Below are positions 1,874 through 30,060 of a stretch of DNA of 34,062 bases, piece after piece. The position numbers and the translations under genes were made by a program. This stretch comes from an uncultured Fretibacterium sp. (GTDB taxonomy: Bacteria > Synergistota > Synergistia > Synergistales > Aminobacteriaceae). Every line of letters starts with the position of its first letter. Position 1 is the stretch's first letter. Under the pieces are notes generated by a model. The model had not been told where the DNA came from. It saw only the letters and a program-made list of their open reading frames with translations, and made no database searches. The stretch is from contig CAMVMK010000022.1 in NCBI GenBank assembly GCA_947168585.1, forward strand, positions 1-34,062, given 5' to 3'.

Positions 1874-3208
1874 ATGAACAAAATTAAAATCATCGGTGCA
1901 GGCTTGGCAGGCTGTGAAGCTGCGTGGCAGATTGCTTGTCGCGGCCTGCCGGTCGAGCTTTACGAAATGAGGCCTGCTCTCTTAACTCCTGCTCATAAAA
2001 CAGGAATGTTAGCTGAAATAGTCTGCTCTAATTCGTTAGGCTCTGAAAATAAAAACGACAGAATTTCAGCCGCCGGAATTTTGAAAGAAGAGTTAGAAAT
2101 TTTTAACTCCTTAATTCTTTCATGCGCTAAAAAATCTCAAGTCCCAGCCGGAGGAGCTCTTGCTGTAGACCGCGAAAAATTTTCAAGCCTCGTAACTGAA
2201 AAAATAATTTCTCACCCTAATATAAAATTAATCCGCGAAGAAGTTAAATCAATTCCCGATGATTTAGCTATAATTTCTTCAGGGCCTTTAACTTCGAACG
2301 CGCTTGCAAACGAATTAAAAAATATCGCAGGTGAAAGAATTTATTTTTATGATGCCGTTGCTCCTGTCTTAATGAAAGAAAGCATAAATTTTGAAAAAGT
2401 TTTCGTTTCGGGACGTTACGGACGCGGAGATGATTATATAAATTGCCCGCTCTCGAAAGAAGAATATTTGAATTTCTATGACGCTTTAATAAACGCAGAA
2501 AGAAATTTGCCTCACGATTTTGAGAAAAATAAATATTTTGAGGGCTGTATGCCTGTTGAAGCCTTAGCCGATAGAGGCATTGACACTTTAAGATTCGGCC
2601 CTATGAAGCCGCGCGGATTAATTGAACCTCGAACAGGCCGCGAACCTTATGCCGCCGTTCAGCTCAGGCAGGATAACGCTGACGGAACTTTATTTAACAT
2701 TGTAGGTTTTCAGACGGGATTAAAATGGGGCGAACAAAAAAGAGTTTTTGCTATGATACCCGGTCTTGAAAATGCCGAATTTGTAAGATTGGGCGTAATG
2801 CACAGAAATACGAGCGTAAATGCTCCTGCTGTTTTAGATAAATTTTTGAGATTAAAATCCCGCGAAAATATTTTTCTTGCCGGGCAGATAACGGGCGTTG
2901 AAGGTTACATGGAAAGCACAGCTATGGGACTTGCCGCAGGAATTAACGCAGCAATGTTAATGAGCGGTAAAAATTTTCCCGTTTGGCCTCGTGAAAGCGC
3001 GATAGGTTCTTTAATAAATTATTTAATGACTACAGAGCCTAAACATTTTCAGCCTATGAATATGAATTTAGGAATTTTTCCGCCGCCTTCTCAAAAAATT
3101 AAAGGCAAGCAGGACCGCGCAAAATTTTTTAGAGATAACGCCTTAAAAGCAATGAGGAATGAATTTCAAGAAAACTCCTCACTCCTAACCTCTAACCCCT
3201 CACTATAA
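1874..3208 (+). CDS. trmFO: TrmFO, folate/FAD-dependent tRNA (uracil-54-C5)-methyltransferase
   Basis: TrmFO makes ribothymidine at position 54 of tRNA, using 5,10-methylenetetrahydrofolate and reduced flavin. The 444-residue length is normal. The N-terminal FAD-binding Rossmann motif GAGLAGCEAA (residues 8-17), the ELYEMRP segment and the CSNSLGS motif are diagnostic. The two functional cysteines of the family are present as Cys51 and Cys225. ATG 1874 lies 9 bases after the endonuclease stop, with no clear Shine-Dalgarno sequence. The last codons are unusual: the final 11 residues and the stop codon are encoded by an array of heptanucleotide repeats at 3174-3208, so the natural C-terminus has probably been replaced or extended. 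Confidence 0.95.
   Translation: MNKIKIIGAGLAGCEAAWQIACRGLPVELYEMRPALLTPAHKTGMLAEIVCSNSLGSENKNDRISAAGILKEELEIFNSLILSCAKKSQVPAGGALAVDREKFSSLVTEKIISHPNIKLIREEVKSIPDDLAIISSGPLTSNALANELKNIAGERIYFYDAVAPVLMKESINFEKVFVSGRYGRGDDYINCPLSKEEYLNFYDALINAERNLPHDFEKNKYFEGCMPVEALADRGIDTLRFGPMKPRGLIEPRTGREPYAAVQLRQDNADGTLFNIVGFQTGLKWGEQKRVFAMIPGLENAEFVRLGVMHRNTSVNAPAVLDKFLRLKSRENIFLAGQITGVEGYMESTAMGLAAGINAAMLMSGKNFPVWPRESAIGSLINYLMTTEPKHFQPMNMNLGIFPPPSQKIKGKQDRAKFFRDNALKAMRNEFQENSSLLTSNPSL
3174..3208. repeat. Heptanucleotide repeat array inside the 3' end of trmFO
   Basis: Five consecutive 7-base units run through the trmFO tail. The first four follow the pattern AC(T/C)(C/T)CT(A/C), and the last unit supplies the TAA stop. 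The array occupies the place where a ribosome binding site for cobJ (ATG 3211) would be expected, and none is visible there. It is the complement-orientation member of a family seen at six other gene boundaries in this window. Confidence 0.75.
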
Positions 3209-3977: not shown

Positions 3978-4050
3978 CTTCTCCCAAAAACTGAAAAGAA
4001 ATAAATAGAACACGCTGAAGCAGTGCAAAAATTTGAAAGGAGACTTTTCA

Positions 4051-5127
4051 ATGAATTTTATAGCTTTTTTATTTGCCGTTGCCGGTGCTGCGCTCAATTT
4101 GTTTCAGCCTGTAATTACTACTGCTGTCGAAGGTTCAAATTTTACAGGTTCAATGTATAACGGTGCTGTGATGATGGTTAATAACATTGCGGAAAACGGT
4201 ATGCCTGGCGGAGACGGTTCTTCGATTGCTGCTATTTTATTTTTTGCGGTACTTTGTTTATTCCCGATTATAGCAGCTTTTCAGGGATTGCTCGCTTTAA
4301 TTCGCAAGGGTTATCATGTTAAGAGGAATCTTTTTTTATGTGCTCTTGTAACGGGCTTAACAGCTGCGGGAATTTATTATGCTCCTTCGATAAATACGGC
4401 TTTACCGGAATTTTTGACGGTTTATATTATGCCTTTTGCTAAGAGCATTTCGTTTATTATTCCTGCTGTGTGGGCAGTGTGCTATCTTATCGCTTCTATT
4501 TTTGCTCAAAACGCTCAAAAAACTCAGTTAGTTCAATATGCTGTATCAAATTCCGGCACTGTGAATTTAAGAAAAGGCCAGAAAGTCGACCTCTCGAAAA
4601 ATAATCCGGGATTATCAAATTTGCTTGTAGGTTTAGGCTGGAAAATTAATAGTTCCGGTGCTGATTTTGATTTAGATGCTTCGGCTTTCATGCTTGGTGC
4701 GGGTGATAAAGTTTTGGACGGCGGCGATTTTATTTTCTATAATAATCTCGAACATAGTTCCGGCTCCGTCAGGTCAATGGGGGACAACCGTACCGGCGGA
4801 AGCGGCGGCGATGATGAGCAAATTAAAGTTGATTTATCGAGAGTTCCGGCTGAAATAAAGAAAATAGTGTTTACCGTAACGATCAGTAACGCAGAACAGC
4901 GCGGACAAAATTTCGGTCAGGTTTCAAACGCGTTTATTCGTGTTGTCAATGAGGCAAACGGCAAGGAACTTATCCGTTACAATTTAACTGAGAAATTTTC
5001 AAATGAAACGGCTGTGATTGTTGCGGAACTTTTCAGAACTTCAAGCGGCTGGAATTTCAGTGCAGCGGGAGAAGGTATGACCGGCGGTCTTGAAAGACTT
5101 TGCAGAAAATTCGGTGTGAATATCTAA
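4051..5127 (+). CDS. Membrane-anchored TerD-family (tellurium resistance / stress) protein
   Basis: The N-terminal half (about residues 1-155) has four hydrophobic segments, at roughly 3-22, 60-82, 93-112 and 130-152. The C-terminal half, from about residue 165 onward, is a TerD domain. TerD domains bind calcium, and the acidic signatures DFDLDASAF and SMGDNRTGG...DDEQIKVDLS are intact. Known TerD/TerE proteins are soluble proteins of about 190 residues, so the attached membrane domain is unusual. ATG 4051 (358 aa) is preferred over an in-frame upstream TTG because AAAGGAGA lies at 4036-4043. A canonical soluble TerD follows 25 bases downstream, so the pair is probably co-transcribed. The function is likely envelope stress or metal related, but no substrate can be read from sequence. 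The rest of the ter operon (terB, terC, terZ) is absent here. Confidence 0.85.
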   Translation: MNFIAFLFAVAGAALNLFQPVITTAVEGSNFTGSMYNGAVMMVNNIAENGMPGGDGSSIAAILFFAVLCLFPIIAAFQGLLALIRKGYHVKRNLFLCALVTGLTAAGIYYAPSINTALPEFLTVYIMPFAKSISFIIPAVWAVCYLIASIFAQNAQKTQLVQYAVSNSGTVNLRKGQKVDLSKNNPGLSNLLVGLGWKINSSGADFDLDASAFMLGAGDKVLDGGDFIFYNNLEHSSGSVRSMGDNRTGGSGGDDEQIKVDLSRVPAEIKKIVFTVTISNAEQRGQNFGQVSNAFIRVVNEANGKELIRYNLTEKFSNETAVIVAELFRTSSGWNFSAAGEGMTGGLERLCRKFGVNI

Positions 5128-5152: not shown

Positions 5153-5728
5153 TTGTCTATCAATTTAGTTAAGGGTCAGAAAATCGACTTAACGAAACAT
5201 GATCCCGGACTTACTAAAGTTCTTATCGGTCTCGGCTGGGATGTAAATTCTTCCGGCAAAGGATATGATTATGATTTAGATGCTTCAGCATTTTTGCTCG
5301 GTGCTGGCGGCAGAGTTTTAAGCAATAACGATATCGTCTTTTTCAATAATCTTGAGCATATTTCCGGCTCTGTCATGTCAATGGGCGATAACAGAACGGG
5401 CGCAGGTGAAGGCGATGATGAACAGATTAAAGTCGACCTCTCGAAAGTCCCGGCTAACATTGCAAAAATCGTTTTCACCGTAACTATTTACGAAGCAGGA
5501 AAACGGAAACAAAATTTCGGACAGGTTTCAAACGCTTATATCCGTGTCATCAATGAAAAAGATAATAAAGAACTTTTGCGTTACAACCTCAATGAAAAGT
5601 TTTCTACTGAAATGTCAGTAATCGCGGCTGAACTTTACAGAGTCGGCGGTGGCTGGACTTTTAACGCTCTCGGCGAAGGCTTCAACGGTGAAATCGGCGA
5701 ACTTTGCCAAAAATACGGAATAAAATAA
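5153..5728 (+). CDS. terD: TerD-family protein, soluble form
   Basis: This 191-residue protein has the usual length and layout of TerD/TerE: an N-terminal KGQKIDLTKHDPGL segment, the calcium-site sequence DYDLDASAFLL, and the second acidic loop MGDNRTGAGEGDDEQIKVDLSKVP. It is clearly paralogous to the C-terminal domain of the preceding gene, diverging most in loops. The start is TTG 5153, preceded by AAAGGGGAG at 5136-5144. Family members are linked to tellurite, phage and colicin resistance and general stress, but the biochemical role is not settled. With the membrane-anchored paralogue directly upstream, the two may form a membrane-tethered and soluble pair; that is inference. Confidence 0.92.
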   Translation: MSINLVKGQKIDLTKHDPGLTKVLIGLGWDVNSSGKGYDYDLDASAFLLGAGGRVLSNNDIVFFNNLEHISGSVMSMGDNRTGAGEGDDEQIKVDLSKVPANIAKIVFTVTIYEAGKRKQNFGQVSNAYIRVINEKDNKELLRYNLNEKFSTEMSVIAAELYRVGGGWTFNALGEGFNGEIGELCQKYGIK

Positions 5729-6465: not shown

Positions 6466-6534
6466 TATCGCAATTAAATTAAATATAAATTCATGATTTC
6501 AGCAAAAAAATTTTTGAAGGAGGAATTTTCTTTC

Positions 6535-8409
6535 ATGTATATAAAAATTTTTCGCACGGCTTTAATTTTAACGATAATTTCCTTAGCGTCGGCATCGTTC
6601 CTGTCTGTCCGGCAGGCAGAGGCAGACTCGTCTATTATTCTTAACGATGAAGCTCATGTCGGCGAGCAGGTTATCTTATCTGTAGAAACTTCTCAAATTC
6701 CTTCCGGAGGTTCTGTAGAATGGTCAGTCAGTCCTACAACAGGCAAAACTCCCGATAGAATTTCACTCCGTGCCGGAGGTCTTGAGTGCGCCTTTATGCC
6801 CCTCGATACTGAGCCCATAAAAGTCGTTGCGTCTTTTATAGACAGATCCGGCAATATTGTTTCAAGTTCAGAAACTTTAATCGACCCTAAAGAATTTCAA
6901 ATTAATGTAGCTGTTGTAGTAGATAAACCTTTAACTCTTTGGGACTCTGAAAAACGCTCAAATAATGTTTTAAGCCCCGAGTCTTTACTCGCAAATTCTC
7001 CCATTAAAATCAGCGCAACTCTCTCGCCTGCTTTTGACGGTAAACCGGTTTTCAAATGGACAGCCGACGCCGCTACTGCAATTCTTGAAGATAACGGCAA
7101 TGAAATTACAATCAAACGCGGCTCAATCGGTGAGAGTGAGCTTTCAGTCGTTGCTTTTAATTCGTCCGGAATAAAATTAGGAAGCGGCTCAGGCGTTGTG
7201 AATATTAATGTTCCCGTCTCGACTTTCGAGGAAAGTTCCAACGAGCGTGAAGCTTGGAATAATTGGCAAAAAGCCCAAGAACTTTGGAGCGGTAAAAATT
7301 ATTCTGAAGCAGTCGACCTCGCAGCGAAAGCCGTATCTCTTGCTCCGAGAGACACTGAAATTGTTGACGGTTTAAGAGCAATGAATATTAATTATTCAAA
7401 ATTCTCAAAGGCTCAAAAACTCCGCGATGATGCTGAAAAATTAGACGAAGAAGGAAAATTCGATGACGCTTTAAGAAATCTCCGCGCTGCTTGGGTCGTT
7501 TGGCCTCTTGATGACGATGACGAAAAAATAAAAGCCGAAGAAAATAAAGTTGACGAGTTAAGAGTTCTCCAGCAAAAAGCAAATTGGCTCCGCGATACAG
7601 CCTCTGCCTACGACAATGAAAGCATGTACGAGGAAGCCCTCGAATATTATGAAAAAAGCATGGCCGTTTTATCGTCAGACGCTATAGCTGACAGAATTGA
7701 AAAAATTAAAAACAGGCTTGAATTAATCGAAGATGCTGATAGATATGCAAACGAGGGAAATACTCTCGAACGTGAGGGAAAATTGCAGGAAGCCCACGAC
7801 CATTACGTTGCAAGCGTCATGAGCAACCCCGACCCGACTTTAAGGCAGCATATCGAGGAACTTCAAAGCGTTATCTCGCGCCGCGAACGTCAGTCTAATG
7901 CTCTTTACCGCGAAGGCCAAGAACTTCAGCGCAGAAATAAACTTCAAGAGGCTTTAACACGTTTTCATGAGAGCGTAAAACTTTGGGACAATGAAAACGC
8001 CCGTCAAAGAATACAAAATCTCAGCCGCAACAGAGGTCTCGCACCCGACGAATATTTAAGAGGCCCTGAAGATTTCGGAATAGGAACAAAAGCCGATGCC
8101 CAAAAAATTATTAAATCAGCTGACGAACTTTTAGCGGACGGCAAAGCTGAACAGGCTCTCGAACTTTACAGAAAAGCCCTGAAAATTTCTCCGAACCCCG
8201 ATCTTCAAAAATGGGCGGCGCGTCTCTTTGAGGTCTTAAAGGAAAATAACGCCGTTGAAGCTGCTAATAAACAAATTAAAGAAGCTAACGCGCTTTATAA
8301 AGCCGGAAAAATTAAAGAAGCTATTGAACTTTATAACCAAAGTTTGAAAACTCATAAAAATGCTGAAATCGAGGAATTTCTTAAAAAACAAGAGCAGGTG
8401 AAAAATTAA
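6535..8409 (+). CDS. Secreted tetratricopeptide-repeat protein with N-terminal Ig-like region
   Basis: ATG 6535 (624 aa) is preferred over an in-frame ATG at 6493 because GAAGGAGG lies at 6516-6523 and because it begins directly with a signal peptide: a basic start, then a hydrophobic core LILTIISLASASFL and a small-residue cleavage region near ADS. Residues about 32-230 are beta-rich and contain two Ig-like stretches, each with a W-x-V/A core. From about residue 235 to the end at least seven TPR-type helical hairpins follow at roughly 35-45 residue spacing, with recognisable pattern A...G...EA...Y..A. The protein is therefore an exported protein-protein interaction scaffold. The stop abuts the GTG of the ParA gene, so the two are translationally coupled. 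No enzyme motif is seen. A GC-rich palindrome (6601-6619) lies in the signal-peptide coding region. Confidence 0.85.
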   Translation: MYIKIFRTALILTIISLASASFLSVRQAEADSSIILNDEAHVGEQVILSVETSQIPSGGSVEWSVSPTTGKTPDRISLRAGGLECAFMPLDTEPIKVVASFIDRSGNIVSSSETLIDPKEFQINVAVVVDKPLTLWDSEKRSNNVLSPESLLANSPIKISATLSPAFDGKPVFKWTADAATAILEDNGNEITIKRGSIGESELSVVAFNSSGIKLGSGSGVVNINVPVSTFEESSNEREAWNNWQKAQELWSGKNYSEAVDLAAKAVSLAPRDTEIVDGLRAMNINYSKFSKAQKLRDDAEKLDEEGKFDDALRNLRAAWVVWPLDDDDEKIKAEENKVDELRVLQQKANWLRDTASAYDNESMYEEALEYYEKSMAVLSSDAIADRIEKIKNRLELIEDADRYANEGNTLEREGKLQEAHDHYVASVMSNPDPTLRQHIEELQSVISRRERQSNALYREGQELQRRNKLQEALTRFHESVKLWDNENARQRIQNLSRNRGLAPDEYLRGPEDFGIGTKADAQKIIKSADELLADGKAEQALELYRKALKISPNPDLQKWAARLFEVLKENNAVEAANKQIKEANALYKAGKIKEAIELYNQSLKTHKNAEIEEFLKKQEQVKN

Positions 8410-9750
8410 GTGATTATAATAGGTTTTTGCAATCTCAAAGGCGGCGTAGGGAAAACTACAGCGTGTCAAAATATCGCTGTTGCCTTAGCTAAGACAGGCC
8501 GCCGTGTCGCAGTTATCGACATGGACCCTCAAAGCAACTTAAGCGCGGGCTTCGGAGTTACTCCGGGCTCGACTGATCCGCAGGTTTTTGATTTACTCAC
8601 GGGCGAAGCAAAATGGGACGATATTGTCAGGCAAAAAGAGGGCGTTGATGTTATTCCGAGTTCGTTAAATTTGACTATGGCGGAATTAAACAACTCCGGA
8701 ATTTTAGAAAATGATTTGCTTCTGCGTGAGGCTGTGCAGGCAATTTCGCCGGATAGATACGATTATGTATTTATCGACAGCCCTCCTCAGCTTGGAATTT
8801 TTACGCGGAACGTTTTAGCGGCCTGCGACAAAATAATTGTACCGATGGACGGAGGTTATTACAGTCTTTTCGGATTTAAGCTGCTTGAAGAAGCTCTGCC
8901 GGTTTTGTGTGAAAGAATCGGGCATAATTTGGAAATTTTAGGAATTTTGATGACAAATCATAATCCCCGCTTTTCTATAGCGCAGACAATTTTCAGCGAA
9001 ATTAAAAAAAGTTACGCCGATATTTTATTTGAAAGTTATATTTCTCAGAGTGTCGGCTTAATCGAAGCGTCAAGTATGGGAATGTCGATTTTTGAATATT
9101 CTCCGACTTCAAAGGCCGCTCAATGTTATAAAGATGTCGCAAAAGAATTAATTAAGCGTGTCGAGGGAAAAGAAGATATCGAAATTCCGAAATCTAAACG
9201 TAAACCGGGACGGCCTAAAAAAAATTCTACGAAAAAAGAAGAAATTGAAAAAGAAATTCCCGAGCCGCAAGTAACAGAGCCTGAGACGAAAGAGCAAAAA
9301 ATAATTTCAGAGCCTGCTCCCGTTGTTACAACTGAGCCTGAGCCGATTGTCAAGCCGGGTGATGATGTTTTAGAAATTTTAACGCCGCCGACTGAAATTC
9401 CTGTTACTCCGCCCGAGCCGGAGCCGCTAACGCCGCTGCAACCTTCGAAGCCTGATTCTGATAATTACGTAGATAAAATCAAGCAGGATTTAATAGACTT
9501 ACTGCCGGAACGCCAGCAGCAAATTTGGAGTCAGATTTTAGCACCGATTGAAGATGTTTCGCGCGGTGAAATTAATATTGAAGAACTCCGCGAAGATTTT
9601 TCAAACAGCGATAATTACCGTTACACTTTTTATGTTCTTACTGACGAAAATAACAGGCTTGAAGCTGTTTCATTCCCGGATCAAATTGCAGATCCTTTAC
9701 GCGCTGTCGTTAAACTTGATGAGCACGGCGCAGCAGAAATATTTTTTTAG
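8410..9750 (+). CDS. ParA/Soj-family ATPase with AT-hook-like linker and novel C-terminal domain
   Basis: The first 250 residues are a ParA/MinD-type ATPase. The deviant Walker A is KGGVGKTT (residues 9-17, with the signature lysine), Walker A' is VIDMDPQSNLS and Walker B is VFIDSPPQ. Such proteins form ATP-dependent dimers on DNA or a surface and position cargo. Residues 261-272 (KSKRKPGRPKKN) contain the GRP core of an AT-hook flanked by lysines. A Pro/Glu-rich linker of about 80 residues follows. The last 90 residues form an acidic folded-looking domain I do not recognise. The start is GTG 8410, immediately after the TPR gene stop. There is no parB neighbour, so a chromosome or plasmid partition role is not supported. 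Positioning of a protein complex, perhaps involving the exported TPR protein, is possible but inferred. Confidence 0.85.
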   Translation: MIIIGFCNLKGGVGKTTACQNIAVALAKTGRRVAVIDMDPQSNLSAGFGVTPGSTDPQVFDLLTGEAKWDDIVRQKEGVDVIPSSLNLTMAELNNSGILENDLLLREAVQAISPDRYDYVFIDSPPQLGIFTRNVLAACDKIIVPMDGGYYSLFGFKLLEEALPVLCERIGHNLEILGILMTNHNPRFSIAQTIFSEIKKSYADILFESYISQSVGLIEASSMGMSIFEYSPTSKAAQCYKDVAKELIKRVEGKEDIEIPKSKRKPGRPKKNSTKKEEIEKEIPEPQVTEPETKEQKIISEPAPVVTTEPEPIVKPGDDVLEILTPPTEIPVTPPEPEPLTPLQPSKPDSDNYVDKIKQDLIDLLPERQQQIWSQILAPIEDVSRGEINIEELREDFSNSDNYRYTFYVLTDENNRLEAVSFPDQIADPLRAVVKLDEHGAAEIFF

Positions 9751-9807
9751 TGAGGAGTTAGGGGTTAGGAGTGATTTTGCTTTTCATTCCTAACTTTTTA
9801 TTTTTTT
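9750..9807 (+). terminator. Heptamer-repeat array forming a terminator-like hairpin after the ParA gene
   Basis: Heptamers GTGAGGA, GTTAGGG, GTTAGGA lie at 9750-9770. An inverted arm lies at 9784-9794. GTTAGGAGTGA (9764-9774) pairs with TCATTCCTAAC (9784-9794), 11 pairs including one G-T, with a 9-base loop. A T-rich tract (T5 A T7) follows at 9795-9807. This has the form of an intrinsic terminator built from the repeat family. It lies just ahead of the ribosome binding site AAGGAGA of the next gene. Confidence 0.7.
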
Positions 9808-9822
9808 AAGGAGAATTTAATT

Positions 9823-12585
9823 TTGAAAAAAATTTTTTCAGCTGTATTAATTTTTGCGCTTTTATTTATTCCCGAAATTTTATTCGCAGGCGTTAAAGAT
9901 ACTCTGAATTCAATGACGCTCGAACAAAAAATCGGTCAGCTTTTTATAATCCGTCCTGACGCTTTAGACACTAATTTAACTCTCGAAGAAATTGATAAAT
10001 CAAATGCTGAAGGTGTCGGCAAGATTAATAAAACAATGCTCGAAACTTTGAAAAAATATCCTGCCGGAGGTTTTGCTCTTTTCAGAAAAAATATTAAAAC
10101 TCCCAAGCAGTTAAAAACTTTCACTCAGGCATTAAAAAATTCTTGCAAAATATTTCCCTTTATGGCCGTTGACGAAGAGGGCGGACAAATTTCACGCATA
10201 GCGAACGCAAAAAATTTTAACGTCAAAAAATTCGAGAGCGTTCAAAAAATAGCGGAGTCAAAAAAATCTCTTGAGGCCGGAAAAATTATCGGGGCTTATG
10301 TCAAAGAATACGGCTTTAATTTCGATTTTGCTCCCGTTGCTGATGTCAATACTAATCCCGAAAATATCGTAATCGGAGACAGGGCTTTCGGAGATAATCC
10401 CGAATTTGTATCGAAAAATGTCAGCGAATTTCTTGAAGGTTTGCACTCTCAGGGCATTGCAGGTTGCATTAAACATTTTCCAGGACACGGCGACACTAAA
10501 GGCGACACCCACAAAGGCGTGGTTAATGTTTATAAAACTTGGAAAGATTTATTAAAAGCCGAGATTATTCCTTTCAAAGAAAATTTGAAAAAAACTGACG
10601 CTATTATGACCGCTCATATTACTATGAAAAATATTGACGGTTTGCCCGCGACTTTTTCACGCGAATTAATCACAAATAAATTACGAAAAGAATTAGCTTA
10701 TGACGGCGTGATTATTTCTGACGCTATGAACATGGACGCGATAAAAAATAATTATAAATCTTCACAGGCCGCTATTTTAGCTCTTGAGGCCGGCAATGAT
10801 ATAGTCTTAATGCCTTATGATTATATTGAAGCGTTCGAGGGAGTTTTGAACGCCGTTAAATCCGGGCGGATTTCAGAAGAAAGGATTAATGAAAGCGTCA
10901 TGAGAATTTTAGAATTAAAAGAAAAATTAAAATTAAAATGGTGGCAGAAAAAGCCCGTCTATCAAATTTACCCGAAAAGTTTTTTAGATACTAACGGCTC
11001 AGGTACGGGCGATATTAGAGGCATAATTAACAAACTCGATTATTTGAAGTCTCTTGATGTCGGAGCGTTATGGCTGACTCCGATTTATCCGTCCCCTATG
11101 ATAGATAACGGCTATGATATTTCGGATTATACGGGAATAAATGAAAATTTCGGGAGCATGAAAGATTTTGACGAATTAATTTCAGAAGCTGATAAACGCG
11201 GAATTAAAATCGTCATGGATTTAGTTTTTAATCATACTTCAGATAAACATTCATGGTTTTTAGAGTCAAAGAAAAATAAAACTAATCCCAAAGCCGACTG
11301 GTATATTTGGCGCGATGCTAAAGACGGACACGAGCCTACGAACTGGCGCGGAATTTTCGGCGGAAGCGCATGGACATGGTGCGAAGAAAGAAAACAATAT
11401 TATCTTCACACATTTGCTGAGCAGCAGCCGGACTTAAATTGGGAAAATCCCGAAGTCAGACGGGCTTTATATGACGCTGCAAATTTTTGGCTTTCAAAAG
11501 GTGTCGGAGGTTTCAGGATTGACGCTATAACTTACATAAAAAAGCCTGCGGAATTTTTAGACGGTGAGCCCGACAGCAAAGAAGGCACGATTAATATTCA
11601 TTTAATGACGGCAAACAGGCCGGGAATTTTAGATTTTTTAAGAGAATTTAAGCGTGAAGTTTTCGAGGGCAAAGATATTTTTACTGTCGGAGAAGCTAAC
11701 GGAGTTAAGCCCGAAGACTTAAAAGACTGGGTCGGTGAGCACGGAGTTTTTGATATGCTCTTTGAATTTAGTCATGTCAGCCTGCCTTTCGATGATTTTG
11801 AAATTTGGTGTCATAAACGCGACTGGAAATTAACGGAACTTAAAAAAGCTCTCACAGCAAGTCAGAACGCTACGAAAAATAACGGCTGGTATCCTATATT
11901 TTTTGAAAATCATGATCAGCCGAGAAGCGTAAATCATTTTTTGCCTGACGGAGCAGACCCGAAAAAAGCAGCGAAAGCTATAGCCGCAGTTTTAATGACG
12001 TTGCGCGGAACTCCTTTTATTTATCAAGGCCAAGAACTTGGAATGACGAACGTATCATGGAACGATATAAATAATTACGATGATATTTCTTCTCACGGTC
12101 AATATAAAATAGCTTTGAGCGAGGGTTTTAAGCCGGACGAAGCTATGAAATTTGTAAAATATTTCAGCCGCGATAATGCCCGTACGCCCATGCAGTGGAA
12201 TAACAAAGCTAACGCGGGATTTTCGCCCGAAAATGTTAAAACGTGGCTGCCGGTGAACGAAAATTATAAAACTATAAATGCCGAAGCAGAAGAAAAAGAC
12301 CCGGACTCTGTGCTTAAGTTTTATAGAAAATTAAGCGCGCTTAGAAAAAATCATGAAGCATTAATCGCAGGAGATTATAAAGAAATTTTTGCGGACAGTG
12401 AAGAAATTTTCGCGTTTGAACGTTCATTGAATGACGAAAAAATTATTACAATCGTGAATTTTACGTTAAAGCCCGTGAAAGTTCCTGACAAAATCGCAAA
12501 GAAAAATTTAATTTTGTCGAGCGAAAAAATTTTTGAAGAGTCCGAATTAAAACCTCTTGAAGCAAGAATTTATAAGGGCAAGTAG
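9823..12585 (+). CDS. Exported GH3 (NagZ-like) - GH13 (alpha-glucosidase) fusion protein
   Basis: One uninterrupted 920-residue frame encodes two complete glycosidases. TTG 9823 follows AAGGAGA at 9808-9814, and a signal peptide (KKIFSAVLIFALLFIPEILFA) leads. Residues about 25-365 form a GH3 beta-N-acetylhexosaminidase domain: the KHFPGHGDT motif at 217-225, the Asp228/His230 dyad loop, and nucleophile Asp300 in ISDAMNMD. This type removes GlcNAc in peptidoglycan turnover. From Lys372 a GH13 oligo-1,6-glucosidase-type domain starts at its normal N-terminus (KWWQKKPVYQIYPKSF). It has the QPDLN signature, nucleophile Asp567 (GFRIDAI), acid/base Glu624 and transition-state Asp698 (ENHDQ). Ala568 after the nucleophile usually favours alpha-1,4 over alpha-1,6 bonds. 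The fusion would carry a normally cytoplasmic enzyme across the membrane. The stop codon lies in a repeat heptamer. Confidence 0.9.
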   Translation: MKKIFSAVLIFALLFIPEILFAGVKDTLNSMTLEQKIGQLFIIRPDALDTNLTLEEIDKSNAEGVGKINKTMLETLKKYPAGGFALFRKNIKTPKQLKTFTQALKNSCKIFPFMAVDEEGGQISRIANAKNFNVKKFESVQKIAESKKSLEAGKIIGAYVKEYGFNFDFAPVADVNTNPENIVIGDRAFGDNPEFVSKNVSEFLEGLHSQGIAGCIKHFPGHGDTKGDTHKGVVNVYKTWKDLLKAEIIPFKENLKKTDAIMTAHITMKNIDGLPATFSRELITNKLRKELAYDGVIISDAMNMDAIKNNYKSSQAAILALEAGNDIVLMPYDYIEAFEGVLNAVKSGRISEERINESVMRILELKEKLKLKWWQKKPVYQIYPKSFLDTNGSGTGDIRGIINKLDYLKSLDVGALWLTPIYPSPMIDNGYDISDYTGINENFGSMKDFDELISEADKRGIKIVMDLVFNHTSDKHSWFLESKKNKTNPKADWYIWRDAKDGHEPTNWRGIFGGSAWTWCEERKQYYLHTFAEQQPDLNWENPEVRRALYDAANFWLSKGVGGFRIDAITYIKKPAEFLDGEPDSKEGTINIHLMTANRPGILDFLREFKREVFEGKDIFTVGEANGVKPEDLKDWVGEHGVFDMLFEFSHVSLPFDDFEIWCHKRDWKLTELKKALTASQNATKNNGWYPIFFENHDQPRSVNHFLPDGADPKKAAKAIAAVLMTLRGTPFIYQGQELGMTNVSWNDINNYDDISSHGQYKIALSEGFKPDEAMKFVKYFSRDNARTPMQWNNKANAGFSPENVKTWLPVNENYKTINAEAEEKDPDSVLKFYRKLSALRKNHEALIAGDYKEIFADSEEIFAFERSLNDEKIITIVNFTLKPVKVPDKIAKKNLILSSEKIFEESELKPLEARIYKGK

Positions 12586-12711
12586 GAAGTAGGAGGTAGG
12601 AAGTAAGAAAATTTCTAACCCCTCACCATAAAAAGCATTTGCGCGTGCCTAAAATTTTTTCTTATTAAAAAAGCTAAGTGCGCGAGAATTTTCTAACCCC
12701 TAACTCCTAAC
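12582..12711. repeat. Heptamer repeats between convergent genes
   Basis: Four units of GTAGGAA type occupy 12582-12609, and the first contains the TAG stop of the fusion gene. Opposite-orientation units lie at 12613-12626 and three more (CTAAC-ending) at 12691-12711, just before the AEC transporter stop on the other strand. Between them is a T6-CTTATT-A6 palindrome that could serve as a weak bidirectional terminator. Confidence 0.7.
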
Positions 12712-14930: not shown

Positions 14931-15000
14931 TTAGGGGTTAGGGGTGAGGGGTTAGGGATTATTTTTTCATACCTCATTCCTAATTCCTCACTCCTAATTG
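14931..15000. repeat. Facing heptamer arrays between mreB and mreC
   Basis: Four TTAGGGG-type units at 14931-14958 face four CTCATTC/CTAATTC-type units at 14973-15000 across a 14-base AT spacer. The outer heptamers pair exactly (AATTAGG with CCTAATT) and inner ones pair with mismatches and G-T pairs, so the transcript can fold into a long imperfect hairpin. The array fills nearly the whole mreB-mreC gap. Confidence 0.8.
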
Positions 15001-18294: not shown

Positions 18295-18313
18295 TCCTAA
18301 CTCCTCACTCCTA
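18293..18313 (-). promoter_or_regulatory. Heptamer array supplying the ribosome binding site of paralogue 1
   Basis: Three heptamers lie between dtd and the first coiled-coil gene. Read on the minus strand they contain GAGGAG (complement of 18301-18306), 6 bases ahead of the ATG at 18294. This is a good Shine-Dalgarno site made by the repeat. Confidence 0.65.
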
Positions 18314-18320
18314 ATTATTT

Positions 18321-24177: not shown

Positions 24178-25869
24178 TTATTTTTCGCGATGGCTGTGAA
24201 GAAGTTCATGCTCGCGTCCTTTTATTAACGTGTCATAAATCGCGAGAGCCGTCGGGTTTTCGTTGGACTTTTTAATTTGCGTATTAATGTCGGAGTCGTA
24301 AAGTCCTGATTTACGGGCTTCTTTTGTGCGTTTACCAGCGTGAGCAGGCTGTCCGCCTCCCATGATACAGCCGCGTCTGCAGGCCATGACTTCAACAAAA
24401 TGGAAGAATTTTTCGCCGCTCTTAATCTGCTTTAATAATTCGTTGGCTTCGGCAAGTCCGCTGACAACTGCCGCTTTAATTTCGTTGCCTTTGTAATTGA
24501 ACGTAAATTCGCGTAACGGGCCGGGACCTCTTACACCGCTTTGACGCAATGCCTCAATAGCAGGACGGTCGGGACCTTCGCAAAGAGTTCTCAAAGCAGC
24601 TTCCATAACACCGCCTGAATTTCCGAAAATAACTCCGCCGCCTGAGCCCATTCCGAAAGGCATATCGGCAGCTTCGCTCTCTAATTTATCGAACTGAATA
24701 CCGGCGCGCTTAATCATAGTGATTAATTCTTCGGTCGTGAGGACGTAATCAATATTTTGTTTTCCGTCGCGTTTCAAATCGTCGCGTAAAATTTCAGCTT
24801 TTTTCGCTGTGCACGGCATGATACCGACTGAAAGAATTTTCTTGCCCTCGTTCTTGGCCGGGTCTGCAAAATATTCACGCGCAACTGAGCCTAACATTTG
24901 AATAGGCGAGTAACTTGTTGAAATATTTTTAGAAAATTCAGGCCAGCGGGTCTCACAGAATTTTACCCAAGCCGGGCAGCATGACGTAAACAACGGGAAA
25001 GGCCCGCCTTTCTCGAAAATTTCAAGAAATTCTTTGCTTTCCTCTAAAATCGTCAAGTCTGCTCCGAAAGTCGTATCATAAACTTCATCGAAGCCGAGAC
25101 GATGCAAAGCCGCAACGATTTTACCCATGACGTTCTCGCCGCGTTCGCCTCCGAATGCCTGACTGACTGCAACACGGACAGCCGGAGCAACCTGCGCAAA
25201 AACTTTTACATCGGGGTCTGATAATGCTTCCCAAACGGGGCGGATATTAGTGTTAATACTTATAGCACCCGTCGGGCAGACTACACGGCATTGACCGCAA
25301 TTAACGCAGTCTGTTTTAGCGAGTTCCTTATTAAATGCCGGAGCTACTGTCGCGTAAGTTCCGCGATTAGTAAAGTCAATAGCGTTAACCCCCTGAATAC
25401 CCTCGCAGACTCTGACGCAGTCGCCGCAAAGAATACATTTATTCGGGTTTCTAACGATTGAAGGCGAGCTGAAATCTATCGGGTGATGACCCTTGTGAGC
25501 AGGATATGAGACACTCGCAACGCCGAGCCTGTGAGCTAATCTCTGTAAATCGCAGTCGCCGCTCTTAACGCAAGAAGTGCAATCGCGGTCGTGTGAAGCG
25601 AGCAATAACTCAATAATCATTCGTCTGTAACGAACGAGTCTGGGCGTGTTAGTCTTAATGCTCATGCCGTCGCGCGGACGTTCTGAACATGACGCGAAAA
25701 TTCTGCCTCTATCGTCTTCAACGTTGCAAAGTCTGCAGGCTCCGTAAATTGAAAGCTCCGAATGATAACATAAAGTCGGTAAATCTATTCCGGCTTTTCT
25801 TATAACTGAAAGAACGTTAGGTTCGTCTGTAAATTCAACGGGAAAACCGTCAATTTTCATAAATCCCAT
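24178..25869 (-). CDS. hydA: [FeFe]-hydrogenase catalytic subunit of a HydABC-type complex
   Basis: This 563-residue enzyme makes or consumes H2. In order it has an N-terminal plant-ferredoxin [2Fe-2S] domain (Cys34, 45, 48, 61), the HxxxC..C segment HDRDCTSCVKSGDC, two [4Fe-4S] motifs (CILCGDCVRVC and CVNCGQCRVVCPTGA) and the H-cluster domain. The H-cluster signatures are complete: TSCCPAW with proton-transfer Cys297 and ligand Cys298, MPCTAKK with Cys353, and ACRRGC with Cys497 and Cys501. The last motif has RR where CpI has PG. ATG 25869 follows AGGAGG. With HydB and HydC encoded upstream it should form an NADH- and ferredoxin-coupled complex, as in Thermotoga, though it lacks the C-terminal [2Fe-2S] extension of that HydA. 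Confidence 0.93.
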   Translation of the reverse strand: MGFMKIDGFPVEFTDEPNVLSVIRKAGIDLPTLCYHSELSIYGACRLCNVEDDRGRIFASCSERPRDGMSIKTNTPRLVRYRRMIIELLLASHDRDCTSCVKSGDCDLQRLAHRLGVASVSYPAHKGHHPIDFSSPSIVRNPNKCILCGDCVRVCEGIQGVNAIDFTNRGTYATVAPAFNKELAKTDCVNCGQCRVVCPTGAISINTNIRPVWEALSDPDVKVFAQVAPAVRVAVSQAFGGERGENVMGKIVAALHRLGFDEVYDTTFGADLTILEESKEFLEIFEKGGPFPLFTSCCPAWVKFCETRWPEFSKNISTSYSPIQMLGSVAREYFADPAKNEGKKILSVGIMPCTAKKAEILRDDLKRDGKQNIDYVLTTEELITMIKRAGIQFDKLESEAADMPFGMGSGGGVIFGNSGGVMEAALRTLCEGPDRPAIEALRQSGVRGPGPLREFTFNYKGNEIKAAVVSGLAEANELLKQIKSGEKFFHFVEVMACRRGCIMGGGQPAHAGKRTKEARKSGLYDSDINTQIKKSNENPTALAIYDTLIKGREHELLHSHREK

Positions 25870-25880
25870 TTCAACACCTC

Positions 25881-27758
25881 CTAAGCGACATAGATAGCTT
25901 TGAACGGACAAGCAGCAATACACGCACCGCACTTGATACACTTGCTCTGGTCAATTTCGTACGGAGTTTTAGGCGCGCCGTGAATAGCTTGGACAGGGCA
26001 GCCTCTTGCGCATTTTGAACAGGCTTTGCATTTTTCTTTGTCGATAATGTACTGCTTGAGTTTTTGACAGACATGAGCCGGGCATTTTTTGTCTTTGATG
26101 TGAGCTTCATATTCGTCAAGGAAATTATCGAGAGTGCTGACGACAGGCAGCGGAGCAGATTTCCCGAGTCCGCAGAGAGCAGTGTTGATAATTAAATCCG
26201 AGAGCGTTCTAAGTTTTTCGATGTCCTCCATTTCGCCCTGACCCGCGACAATTCTCTCTAAAATTTCTAACATTCTTAGAGTTCCTTCGCGGCACGGGAC
26301 ACATTTTCCGCAGCTTTCACGGTGAGTAAATTCCATGAAGAATCTCGCAACTTCGACCATGCAGGTATCTTCGTCCATTACGACGAGGCCGCCTGAGCCG
26401 ACAATTACGCCTAATTTTTTGACGTTATCGAAATCAAGAGGTTCATCAAGCTGGCTTTCTGTCAAACAGCCGCCTGAAGGTCCGCCGATCTGAACGGCTT
26501 TGAATTTTTTATCGTTGCGAATGCCTCCGCCTATTTTGAAAATAATTTCGCGCGGAGTAATTCCGAACGGGACTTCAATTAAGCCGGTATTTTTGACGCT
26601 TCCGGTGAGAGCAAAGGCTTTTGTTCCGGGACTTTTTTCAGTGCCGAAACCTTTGAACCAGTCTGCTCCGTTAGTGATAATCATCGGAACGTTCGCAAAA
26701 GTTTCAACGTTATTTAATACTGTAGGCTTTTCAAATAATCCCTGCTCGACTGTTCGCGGCGGTTTAACTCTGGGCATTCCTCGCTTGCCTTCGATTGAAG
26801 CAGTTAAAGCACTTCCCTCGCCGCAGACGAAAGCTCCTGCACCGCGATTAATGTGAAGCTGAAAATCAAAGCCCGAACCTAAAATATTTTCGCCGAGCAA
26901 TCCTGCTTCTGTGGCCTGTTTTATAGCAATCTGCAATCTTTTAACGGCTAAAGGATACTCAGCGCGGACATAAATATACCCCTCGTGAGCTCCGACAGCG
27001 TAAGCAGCTATAATCATGCCTTCGATCATTTTATGAGGATCGCCTTCCATTATTGAACGGTCCATAAAAGCGCCGGGGTCGCCTTCATCGCCGTTGCATA
27101 CGACATAACGGACCGTTTCAGCTTGACGGGCAACCTGCTGCCATTTTTTACCGGCCGGGAAACCTCCGCCGCCGCGTCCTCTTAAATTCGAGTCTAAAAT
27201 TTTCTCTATAACTTCATCGGGCGTTAAATCAAAAAGCGAATGAGCCAATGCCTGATAAGCTCCGCTCGCGATAGCTTCTTCAATGTGTTCTGCGTCAATA
27301 TGTCCGCAATTTTTAAGAACGACACGGGTCTGACCGGCATAAAACGGAATTTCTTCCTGCTTGACGTATTCTTTGCCGTCCATTTTATAAATCAGTCTGT
27401 CAATAATTTCGCCGTTCTTTATTGTCTTTTCAAAAATTTCATCGCAGTCTTCGGGCTTGACTTTAGTGTATAAAATTCCCTGCGGTTCAATACGAACTAA
27501 CGGCCCCATTTCGCAAAATCCGTGACAACCTGTGCGTCTTACTCCTACAGGATGCCCGGCAGCTTCGGGAGCAAACTCTACGGAAATATTTGCGTCAGTT
27601 CCTGCAAGTTCGTTGAAACGTTCAGCGATTTTTGCACTTCCTCCGGCCTGACAGCCAGTGCCTGCGCAAATTAATACACGGCAGGGAGAGTTTTTAATTT
27701 TAGCTTCAAAAAGTTCATGAAATTTTTTTAATTCTTCAAAGTTTTCGATTCTGTTCAT
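25881..27758 (-). CDS. hydB: HydB, NADH-binding flavoprotein subunit (NuoF-like)
   Basis: This 625-residue subunit carries FMN and binds NAD(H). It has an N-terminal thioredoxin-like [2Fe-2S] domain (CAGTGC...TGCHGFC), then the NuoF core with GRGGGGFPAGKKW, CNGDEGDPGAFMDRS and INRGAGAFVCGEGSAL, the [4Fe-4S] motif SCGKCVPCREG, and a C-terminal pair of [4Fe-4S] motifs (CKACSKCARGC and CIKCGACIAAC, about residues 576-620). That layout is the one seen in HydB and HndC rather than in respiratory NuoF. ATG 27758 overlaps the hydC stop (ATGA) and follows GAGGAGG. The hydA start is 11 bases after its stop. Confidence 0.95.
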   Translation of the reverse strand: MNRIENFEELKKFHELFEAKIKNSPCRVLICAGTGCQAGGSAKIAERFNELAGTDANISVEFAPEAAGHPVGVRRTGCHGFCEMGPLVRIEPQGILYTKVKPEDCDEIFEKTIKNGEIIDRLIYKMDGKEYVKQEEIPFYAGQTRVVLKNCGHIDAEHIEEAIASGAYQALAHSLFDLTPDEVIEKILDSNLRGRGGGGFPAGKKWQQVARQAETVRYVVCNGDEGDPGAFMDRSIMEGDPHKMIEGMIIAAYAVGAHEGYIYVRAEYPLAVKRLQIAIKQATEAGLLGENILGSGFDFQLHINRGAGAFVCGEGSALTASIEGKRGMPRVKPPRTVEQGLFEKPTVLNNVETFANVPMIITNGADWFKGFGTEKSPGTKAFALTGSVKNTGLIEVPFGITPREIIFKIGGGIRNDKKFKAVQIGGPSGGCLTESQLDEPLDFDNVKKLGVIVGSGGLVVMDEDTCMVEVARFFMEFTHRESCGKCVPCREGTLRMLEILERIVAGQGEMEDIEKLRTLSDLIINTALCGLGKSAPLPVVSTLDNFLDEYEAHIKDKKCPAHVCQKLKQYIIDKEKCKACSKCARGCPVQAIHGAPKTPYEIDQSKCIKCGACIAACPFKAIYVA

Positions 27759-28240
27759 TCTTTCGCGGCCTCCTCTTTTAACTCTTTAATGAGAGCCGTA
27801 GCTTTATCCGGTGTCATAGCCGGGTGAACTTTATCATTTACCATCATGGCCGGAGCAAGTCCGCAAGCCCCTAAACACGATACAGTTTCGACCGTGAATA
27901 ACATATCGTCAGTAGTATGTTTTTTCTCTGAAAGTCCGAGTTCTTCACGCAGACGGTTAAGAACAGGCACAGACTGTCTGACATGGCAGGCAGTACCGTC
28001 GCAGACTCTGATAATATATTTTCCTTTAGCCTCGAATGAAAATCTTTCATAGAAGCTCGCAACGCTGTAAGCCTTTGTCTCAGTTATGCCGATTTTGCCG
28101 GCGATATAAGACAATAATTCGACAGGAATATAATTCCAAGTTTCTTGAATTTCGTGAATAATAGGAATTAATGAACGTTCCTGCGCCGGATATTTGCTTA
28201 AAATTTCGTCTGTTTTTTCGTAAAAAGAATTATCAAGCAC
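27755..28240 (-). CDS. hydC: HydC, [2Fe-2S] subunit (NuoE-like)
   Basis: This 161-residue thioredoxin-like ferredoxin passes electrons within the HydABC complex. The NuoE ligand set C-x4-C ... C-x3-C is visible as CDGTAC and CLGAC (about residues 86-91 and 127-131). A helical N-terminal region with LIPIIHEIQETWNYIP matches the family. The start is GTG 28240. Its Shine-Dalgarno GAGGA (complement of 28248-28252) is part of a GTGAGGA heptamer. It is separated from the upstream hydrogenase gene by 95 bases filled mainly with repeats, so its expression could be partly independent. Confidence 0.94.
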   Translation of the reverse strand: MLDNSFYEKTDEILSKYPAQERSLIPIIHEIQETWNYIPVELLSYIAGKIGITETKAYSVASFYERFSFEAKGKYIIRVCDGTACHVRQSVPVLNRLREELGLSEKKHTTDDMLFTVETVSCLGACGLAPAMMVNDKVHPAMTPDKATALIKELKEEAAKE

Positions 28241-28247
28241 AAAAAAT

Positions 28248-28341
28248 TCCTCACTTTCTTAACAAATTTTATAAATTTAGGAGCGGGGAAGTAAAAAATT
28301 TTTTCAGTTCCTACTTCCTAACTCCTCATTCCTCACTACTT
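28248..28341. repeat. Heptamer array between the two hydrogenase transcription blocks
   Basis: Five units of (G/C/A)TTCCTA or ACTCCTC type lie at 28307-28341, and the last one holds the stop codon of the upstream hydrogenase gene. An inverted GGAAGTA near 28287 can pair with TACTTCC in the array across an A6T6-like spacer. A single GTGAGGA at the other edge serves as the hydC ribosome binding site. Confidence 0.7.
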
Positions 28342-30060
28342 CCATAACTCCCAGCGGACTTGATCCGTGTGAAGCAAATGATGTGATTTTTCGCCCAAAG
28401 GTTTCCCTAAAAATTCTCTGTAACACTGAATAATTGAGGGATTTTCGTGGGAAAATCTCAAGTTGGATTTCTTATCGAGAGCTAAAAGCAAGCGGCCTCT
28501 GTCTGCTCCAAGTTCTTCACCTTCAAAAATAGGCTGACCGCCGCCTCCTGCACAACCTGTCGGGCAAGCCATGCACTCAACGAAGTCATATTGAACTTCT
28601 TTATTTTTTATGGCCTCGCAAAGTTTTCGGATATTTCCTAAGCCGTGAGCAACTGCAATTCTTAATTTAGTGCCGTTAATCTCAAATTCTGCTTCTTTCC
28701 AGCCTTTATAGCCGCGAACATTTTTGAAAGCGTCAGGATCGGGATTTTTGCCCGTTACTAAGTTATAAGCCGTTCTCAAGGCTGCTTCCATAACGCCGCC
28801 TGTAGTTCCGAAAATATGTCCCGCTCCGGAAGCTACGCCCAAAGGCATATCAAAACCGCTCTCGGCCAAGTCCTTGACGTTAATTCCTTCCGAACGGATT
28901 AATCTGTCAAGTTCGCGGACTGTCAAAACTGCGTCAACATCACGCGCTCCGGAACTGTTCATGCACTCAACATCACATTCATATTTTTTAGCCGTGCAGG
29001 GCATGAAAGAAACGTGATAAATATCTTCAGCCTTAACGCCTAAAATTTGAGCGTACCAAGTTTTTATAATTGCTCCGAACATCTGCTGAGGAGATTTCGC
29101 GCTCGAAAGATTTCCAACTAATTCTGGATATTCCATTTTTACAAATCTCACCCAGCCCGGACAACATGACGTGAACATCGGATATTCTTTTAATTCGCCG
29201 TCTGTGAGCCTCTTCAAAAATTCGCTGCCCTCTTCCATTATCGTTAAATCCGCTGAAAAATCTGTGTCGAAAACATAATGGAAACCGACTTCACGCAATG
29301 CGCTTACAAGTCTTTCTGAAGTTGCTTCTTCGTGAGTCAAACCTAACTGTTCGCCCCATGAAGTTCTGACAGCAGGAGCAACGGAAGCAATTACTATTTT
29401 TGTCGGGTCAGCTAAGGCATCGCGGACTTTTTGAGTATCATCGCGTTCAGTTAAAGCACCGACAGGGCAGTGAGTTATACACTGTCCGCAAATAGTACAG
29501 TTAATTTCGGTAATATCTTTACCGCCGCGGCAGTCAACGACAGTTTGAGAGCCTGATTTAGCTACGTCCCAAACGTTCATTTGCTGGACTTTCTCGCAGA
29601 CCTGTATGCAACGCATACATTTTATACATTTTTTATCATTGCGGATTAAAGGAAAATCTTGGTTCCATTCAATTCCTTTAATATCTTCATGATAAGGAAA
29701 TTCTAAAATCCCTAAATCATTAGAAATTCTTTGAAGTTCACAGTTACCCGAACGCGCACATTCAGGACATCTTGCGCTGTGCTGTGAAAGTAAAAGTTCG
29801 ACGTTAATTTTTCTTGCCTGACGGACTTTCGGGGAATTTGTACGAATTTCCATGCCTTCAAGGGCGATCGTGTTGCATGACGCTACGAGCCTGTCAAGCC
29901 CGACAATTTCAGCAACGCAGACTCTGCACGCTCCGATTTCATTCAAACCTTTTAAGTAACAAAGGTGGGGAATGTTGATATTATTAAGCCTCGCGGCCTC
30001 AAGAATTGTAGTGTTTTCCGGCACTTGCAAATCTGTACCGTTGATTTTAATGTTTACCAT
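28336..30060 (-). CDS. Second [FeFe]-hydrogenase (CpI-like domain layout)
   Basis: This 574-residue protein has the same length and numbering as clostridial CpI. It has an N-terminal [2Fe-2S] domain (CYLKGLNEIGACRVC), the HSARCPECARSGNC segment, two [4Fe-4S] motifs (CIKCMRCIQVC and CTICGQCITHC) and a full H-cluster set: TSCCPGW with Cys299/Cys300, MPCTAKKYE, and ACPTGC with Cys499/Cys503. It is therefore expected to be catalytic. ATG 30060 overlaps the stop of the GltD-like gene by 7 bases, so these two are translationally coupled. That pairing suggests a group A4-like or Stn/Nfn-like module with NADP(H) as a partner; this is inference from context. Confidence 0.92.
   Translation of the reverse strand: MVNIKINGTDLQVPENTTILEAARLNNINIPHLCYLKGLNEIGACRVCVAEIVGLDRLVASCNTIALEGMEIRTNSPKVRQARKINVELLLSQHSARCPECARSGNCELQRISNDLGILEFPYHEDIKGIEWNQDFPLIRNDKKCIKCMRCIQVCEKVQQMNVWDVAKSGSQTVVDCRGGKDITEINCTICGQCITHCPVGALTERDDTQKVRDALADPTKIVIASVAPAVRTSWGEQLGLTHEEATSERLVSALREVGFHYVFDTDFSADLTIMEEGSEFLKRLTDGELKEYPMFTSCCPGWVRFVKMEYPELVGNLSSAKSPQQMFGAIIKTWYAQILGVKAEDIYHVSFMPCTAKKYECDVECMNSSGARDVDAVLTVRELDRLIRSEGINVKDLAESGFDMPLGVASGAGHIFGTTGGVMEAALRTAYNLVTGKNPDPDAFKNVRGYKGWKEAEFEINGTKLRIAVAHGLGNIRKLCEAIKNKEVQYDFVECMACPTGCAGGGGQPIFEGEELGADRGRLLLALDKKSNLRFSHENPSIIQCYREFLGKPLGEKSHHLLHTDQVRWELWK

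Follow-up and report, generated by a model that had tools for sequence, protein, structure and literature searches.

The closest described relatives of the protein presented here belong to two glycoside hydrolase families, GH3 and GH13. In GH13 enzymes, the residue that follows the catalytic nucleophile is a guide to the preference for alpha-1,4 or alpha-1,6 linkages. NagZ-type enzymes of family GH3 have an Asp-His dyad as their hallmark, and NagZ-type enzymes that work outside the cytoplasm are known, including LpqI and the extracellular NagZ of some Gram-positives (both points from PMC6572805). On the GH13 side, BspAG13_31A is described in PMC10096246 as a member of GH13_31, an alpha-glucosidase with specificity for alpha-1,4 links. 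Among the literature matches listed, no published description was found of a GH3-GH13 join, or of two unrelated complete exo-glycosidases in one chain with almost no linker; the one match to "GH3-GH13/GH13-GH3" is a prefix match to GH3-GH130 and GH13-GH31.

The window is the whole stretch of DNA that was analysed, 34,062 nucleotides long, and is contig 22 of a Synergistaceae MAG (2.35 Mb, 110 contigs, 93.87% complete). One of its genes joins a GH3 and a GH13 enzyme in a single chain. The features of this gene and its upstream neighbours are as follows:

6493..9750, + strand: TPR protein and ParA-like ATPase, upstream of the fused gene
9808..9813, + strand: ribosome-binding site AAGGAG, 9 nt before the TTG start (from the sequence)
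9823..12585, + strand: whole fused GH3-GH13 gene (open frame, translation)
9823..9888, + strand: putative Sec signal peptide, residues 1-22 (cleavage site by eye; hydropathy only)
9916..10917, + strand: GH3 catalytic domain, residues 32-365 (Pfam PF00933; nearest solved structure B. subtilis YbbD, 3bmx)
10504..10512, + strand: Asp228-x-His230 dyad of the GH3 half (alignment; kept in 25/25 fused chains)
10720..10722, + strand: Asp300, GH3 nucleophile (alignment)
10921..10938, + strand: junction EKLKLK, six residues, 367-372 (from the sequence)
10939..12582, + strand: GH13_31-type alpha-glucosidase half, residues 373-920 (Pfam PF00128; nearest structures 2ze0, 5zcb)
11521..11523, + strand: Asp567, GH13 nucleophile, with Ala568 next (alignment)
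11692..11694, + strand: Glu624, GH13 acid/base (alignment)
11914..11916, + strand: Asp698, third GH13 catalytic residue (alignment)

The single-chain fusion proposed in a preliminary description of this DNA is borne out: a TTG start opens a plus-strand frame of 920 codons (920 aa plus stop), and both Pfam domains lie within it. Glyco_hydro_3 (PF00933) matches residues 32-365 with 232.8 bits (cut-off 27), and Alpha-amylase (PF00128) matches residues 381-850 over the full profile with 501.7 bits (cut-off 22). The distance from RILELK, the last helix motif of GH3, to the WW of GH13 is six residues. All of the catalytic residues listed in the preliminary description (D228/H230, D300, D567, E624, and D698) are found where it put them, and a single signal-like N-terminus, MKKIFSAVLIFALLFIPEILFA (judged by eye and by hydropathy), stands before both halves, as it had also claimed. 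An AlphaFold model has a pLDDT of 71.3 and a pTM of 0.70, with 9 of 28 rows spanning both halves; the placement of the domains is not taken from the model.

Several other features of the window can be described. Tandem heptads, (TTAGGRG)n, are located at 3177-3195, 9751-9769, 12692-12710, 14931-14956, 18296-18314, and elsewhere, and flank the fused gene on both sides. The pattern TTAGGRGTTAGG has 13 matches in the window with up to one mismatch (0.22 expected), and TTAGGRGTTAGGRG has 69 exact matches in the genome compared to 0 for the reversed pattern. A C5-cytosine methylase gene (3-992) overlaps an NgoMIV-type restriction enzyme gene (884-1864), and the two are probably a restriction-modification pair. 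Two TerD-domain genes lie in a row (4033-5127 and 5153-5728). On the minus strand, a NuoF-like gene is flanked by two genes for [FeFe]-hydrogenase large subunits (24178-30060); the three are perhaps an electron-bifurcating hydrogenase cluster.

The closest PDB match of the GH3 half is B. subtilis YbbD/NagZ (3bmx, 202 bits). Seven positions (D117, R187, K217, H218, D228, H230, and D300) have identical letters in the aligned 3bmx sequence; these are active-site residues of YbbD, an exported enzyme. The same seven positions are identical in all 25 fused, all 3 adjacent, and all 19 separate GH3 rows. Because the score against the NCBIfam beta-N-acetylhexosaminidase model PRK05337 is 189.9 bits, below the cut-off of 207, the GH3 half is named NagZ-like and is not assigned to that equivalog. 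With its NagZ-type Asp-His dyad, this half would most likely release terminal beta-linked GlcNAc from small fragments (e.g., muropeptides or chitin-type oligosaccharides). NagA is present in the same genome; at 93.87% completeness, this genome has neither a MurQ match above cut-off nor a second GH3 that matches the window protein. The use of MurNAc through MurQ was accordingly rejected for this genome.

The best PDB sequence match of the GH13 half is GSJ alpha-glucosidase (2ze0, 567.7 bits). Foldseek places BspAG13_31A at ranks 1 and 2 (5zcc and 5zcb, 44-46% identity), and none of the 50 Foldseek chains listed covers both halves. The characterised neighbours of this half are 2ze0, 5zcb, and 1uok, which assign it to GH13_31, a label taken from PMC10096246 and from the title of 8ibk and known here by relatives rather than by a subfamily model. 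The nucleophile is followed by Ala568, as in 2ze0 and 5zcb in the alignment, and the Asp-Ala and GEANG motifs are held in common with GSJ and BspAG13_31A. All rows with letters at the GH13 triad and at Ala568 (24 fused, 3 adjacent, and 14 separate) agree at these positions. Most likely, a GH13_31-type half would act on short alpha-1,4-glucosides (e.g., maltose) and free glucose from their non-reducing end. TreC (alpha,alpha-phosphotrehalase) was also considered for this half and rejected, the TIGR02403 score of 583.2 bits being under the cut-off of 799.05. The same genome includes two further GH13-domain genes, on contigs 55 and 61; the first matches the window protein distantly (31% over 178 residues), and the second has no match to it.

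The distribution of the fusion is known from 43 genomes of the genus, including that of the window, which were searched and their loci read (genomes are labelled G and loci L). An open frame runs through the junction in 25 of the 43 (G000, G002-G008, G010, G011, G014-G021, G024, G026, G027, G031, G036, G041, and G042; the G014 chain is cut by a contig end inside GH13). GH3 and GH13 genes are directly adjacent in three genomes (G022, G023, and G030), and a related GH13 lies apart from GH3 in ten (G001, G009, G013, G025, G033, G035, and G037-G040). A close GH13 is absent from four (G012, G028, G032, and G034), and G029, whose pieces end at contig ends, is left unclassed. Other chains with GH3 followed by GH13, for which the preliminary description had advised a search, are thus present in 24 further genomes of the genus. 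It had also allowed that relatives might keep separate genes and the fusion be confined to this assembly; relatives with separate genes do exist, but the fusion is not limited to this assembly. With 24 related genomes fused and others having the parts separate, the fusion is a real gene that has been repeatedly rearranged, and no sequencing accident.

Beyond the genus, a survey of 180 genomes of the class, searched at E up to 1e-60, covers 137 that belong to other genera. None of these 137 yielded a chain that spans both halves, and seven of them (G062-G065, G112, G163, and G164) have single-half matches. A contig scan, which reaches close relatives only, found 254 relatives; among the 80 that were kept, 8 are fused, and all of these are titled Synergistaceae or Synergistales. 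Fused kin in named records are Synergistaceae/Synergistales MAGs from goat stomach compartments and sheep, and one case with adjacent genes (L036) comes from red deer. The eight fused loci of named records probably duplicate assemblies already present among the G genomes and are therefore not added to the 25. The architecture may also exist elsewhere, beyond close relatives of the window protein.

The N-terminus of the window protein resembles a Sec signal by eye, with a best 11-residue hydropathy of 3.00, and a hydrophobic N-terminal core is found in 25 of 25 fused chains (2.31-3.41). Signals in relatives were scored by twin-arginine motif or hydropathy rules, or by eye. GH13-only genes with a signal-like N-terminus of their own are present in the genus (G001, G009, G013, G025, G033, G035, G037, and G040) and in its sister genus (G063, G064, and G065). 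In the adjacent-gene species G022, G023, and G030, GH13 starts 3-9 residues before its domain and lacks a signal; this GH13 would stay cytoplasmic, which suggests that export is not universally needed. Simple rules divide 65 GH13-only loci outside Synergistaceae into 32 with a twin-arginine-like signal, 14 with a hydrophobic core, and 19 with neither. Export-like signals in 46 of these 65 relatives indicate that fusion is not the sole route to export, and because such signals are common on the GH13 of mostly rumen bacteria, the compartment puzzle becomes smaller. The preliminary description had called the coupling of the two enzymes outside the cytoplasm unexpected. This is half right: exported NagZ-type enzymes are known, and GH13 relatives in this family and in rumen Selenomonadaceae often have export-like signals of their own.

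Both halves are under purifying selection. In nine fused pairs (Nei-Gojobori), dN/dS is 0.097-0.156 for the GH3 half and 0.071-0.174 for the GH13 half, at dS values of 0.45-1.47 that are partly saturated, yet the ratios are far from 1. Every one of the 25 fused GH3 halves retains its catalytic residues, as do all 24 fused GH13 halves with letters there. The earlier suggestion of a recent gene fusion under neutral drift is not supported, as the fusion occurs in 25 of 43 genus genomes and dN/dS is 0.07-0.17 in both halves; drift of the enzymes themselves is rejected, given the kept catalytic residues and these low ratios. This test covers the halves and not the join, and purifying selection alone is no proof of a selected join.

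The GH13 half has a history of changing arrangements. In a GH13 tree of 65 rows made by a quick method, fused, adjacent, and several separate rows fall into one 35-row group (SH-aLRT 95). A topology that unites the 28 fused and adjacent rows in a single clade is rejected (p-AU 1.36e-7). The tree calls for four or more changes of state, a count that leaves their individual directions unfixed. Nested in the 35-row group as separate cases are G009/G040, G001/G038/G039, and G033, plus the unclassed G029. In G033, the halves are separate genes, and each stands beside the same 12-row group in its own tree; these matching positions fit the split of a fused gene. The TPR and ParA pair precedes the fused gene in G000, G036, and G007, and the GH13-only gene of G009 and G040, with its own signal-like start, is located at that same TPR and ParA locus. 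Deletion of GH3 in G009/G040 with the old signal peptide kept was considered and rejected: although these genes share the locus, the signal DNA that aligns is so short and AT-rich that it does not prove a common origin.

A different partner is found in G038 and G039, where a signal-like start (by eye) is followed by a C39-peptidase-like domain and then by GH13. The domain assignment comes from the G039 protein, which matches PF13529 with 32.1 bits (cut-off 24). A separate gene 60-68% identical to this domain adjoins the fused gene upstream in G005 and G031. The C39-like gene also lies upstream of the fused gene in G015, with one small ORF between, and in G022 it lies upstream, next to the adjacent GH3/GH13 pair. 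The genes further upstream in G039 are those that precede several fused copies. Since a separate C39-like gene stands upstream of GH3-GH13 in these genomes, loss of GH3 would yield the G038/G039 form, and the simplest account would be the loss of a GH3 that had stood between the C39-like gene and GH13, which brought the two ends together. The same first residues of GH13 around WW are found in each arrangement. Among the L loci, a C39-like domain and the same GH13 occur in one chain at L112:5867-8320 and L158:7894-10338; the domain is its own gene upstream of GH3-GH13 in L137, L144, and L159, and upstream of the pair in L145.

The junction itself varies. Linkers in the 25 fused rows are 6-20 residues long (median 9), and the linker of G007 is seven residues longer than that of its close relative G036. 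The GH3 frame of G030 and G022 closes with TAA; immediately after it, and in frame with it, comes the GH13 ATG, which has AAGGAG nine bases upstream. The fused genes of G003, G010, G019, and G021 have this AAGGAG-9 nt-ATG layout too, with a sense codon in place of TAA. G022 and G030 are weakly placed in the trees, so either TAA or the sense codon may have come first. The G023 boundary has a shorter run of A than that of fused G024, and the frame is shifted (L117 near 2107-2120); this split may be genuine, or it may reflect slippage or an error of sequencing.

The best explanation, to which we give a probability of roughly 0.68, is that this gene of a rumen Synergistaceae genus encodes two independent exo-glycosidases on one export signal ("piggyback export"), and that it was formed by stop loss, with later re-partnering of the GH13 half. 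The anatomy, the conservation, the selection acting on each half, and the range of arrangements are direct results; export, the two activities, and the order and direction of events are inferred. The one N-terminal signal would export the whole chain from the cytoplasm, with the periplasm as its probable destination, and the two active sites would work independently. That the halves are separate in some relatives, that the partner has been swapped, and that the linker is loose all argue for this independence. The role of the fusion would be to provide an export signal and co-expression for the alpha-glucosidase. As the most likely origin, a signal-less GH13 would have stood directly behind a GH3 gene, and the stop between them would have been lost; GH13 would then have changed partners several times, and the join would have fallen at its own first residues on each occasion. 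A point against this explanation is that the fusion has lasted in 25 genomes, more than might be expected of a mere convenience.

It is unlikely that the fusion is kept by sequential action of both sites on one mixed glycan with beta-GlcNAc and alpha-glucose (LPS, wall, or glycoprotein), although the fusion is retained with both sites intact in 25 of 43 genomes. The neighbourhoods also speak for such a glycan: in the fetched stretch of 42 loci, where clusters are named from one member each, LpxK-type genes are near 6 loci, MsbA-like ABC genes near 14, and GlmS-type genes near 18. GH13 is nevertheless apart from GH3 in 10 genomes, the C39-like domain is in the place of GH3 in G038/G039, linkers vary in length (6-20 residues), and the window copy lies behind TPR/ParA genes rather than lipid A genes. 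A mixed cell-wall or storage glycan as common substrate, which the preliminary description had raised, is possible but unsupported, and the repeated coming apart of the halves in relatives argues against an obligatory common substrate. Long persistence and the lipid A-type and GlmS-type neighbours keep an envelope glycan common to both halves possible. Reading a substrate from the gene neighbourhood was rejected, as the neighbours differ between species and give no firm lead.

A bolder view, which we hold to be about as improbable as the mixed glycan, is that of a modular export chassis: the GH13 boundary would be a repeated re-joining point where a single codon sets the compartment, and some species would obtain both compartments via a kept internal start. 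If this were true, a sense codon would give an exported bifunctional chain and TAA a cytoplasmic alpha-glucosidase, and the partners in front of GH13 would be GH3, a C39-like domain, or a bare signal.

Somewhat less probable still is a dual product, in which an internal start also yields a free, signal-less GH13, so that one gene serves two compartments. AAGGAG lies 9 nt before an in-frame ATG ahead of GH13 in the four of 25 fused genes listed above, AAGGA lies 9 nt before ATG in G020, and in G022 and G030 this layout apparently marks the real start. However, the window gene lacks such a start near the junction: the 20 codons before WW include a single in-frame start codon without a ribosome-binding motif. 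AAGGAG also encodes Lys-Glu in common codons (21 of 54 such pairs in the loci of G003, G010, G019, and G021), which weakens these four related cases. Motifs located further upstream, ahead of helix codons, in G006, G008, and G031 (AGGAG/AAGGAG, 10 nt), as well as weaker ones in G004, G011, and G026, look like chance. An internal start as a general feature of fused genes is rejected for the window gene and may apply in 4-5 of 25.

Quite improbable is that the halves are functional and the join alone is kept by drift, with no function of its own, even though the partner has been split off and replaced repeatedly, the linker is variable, and the selection test bears on the halves. One stop codon would be enough to break the join, yet 25 of 43 genomes keep it, and the separate G033 halves, with their matching tree positions, both have signal-like starts. 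An assembly join or missed stop near the junction, raised in the preliminary description and conceivable in a MAG of 110 contigs, is ruled out for practical purposes by the 24 further genomes of the genus in which both halves lie in one open chain.

The fused, adjacent, separated, and partner-swapped states among relatives make the genus a natural series for testing the selected benefit of the fusion; candidate benefits are export, co-expression, and nearness on substrate. The group that includes this genus is often regarded as one of amino-acid fermenters. Two independent enzymes on one export signal, the reading preferred here, point to predicted exported alpha-glucosidases in rumen bacteria of this group.

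Each half can be compared with known systems. B. subtilis NagZ (YbbD; PDB 3bmx/4gyj) is like the window GH3 half in its Asp-His dyad, nucleophile, and aligned active-site residues, but the match stops at residue 395 of 642 of YbbD; the C-terminal part of YbbD is thus absent from the window protein, in which a GH13 enzyme comes next. Mycobacterial LpqI is a single-barrel NagZ-type enzyme outside the cytoplasm, as the window GH3 half would be, and is described in PMC6572805 as a lipoprotein without a second enzyme, whereas the window copy is without an evident cysteine lipobox (by eye). BspAG13_31A (PDB 5zcb/5zcc) has the Asp-Ala after the nucleophile and the GEANG motif, with an equivalent of its Asn258 also in the window GH13 half; its His203 aligns with Tyr571 of the window protein, and its deposited chain lacks a GH3 partner. 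The deposited chain of GSJ (PDB 2ze0) is likewise the GH13 enzyme alone. The GH13 relatives of rumen Selenomonadaceae (among L045-L111) are about 60-69% identical to the window GH13 half and have no GH3 in the chain, but often have a Tat- or Sec-like signal of their own.
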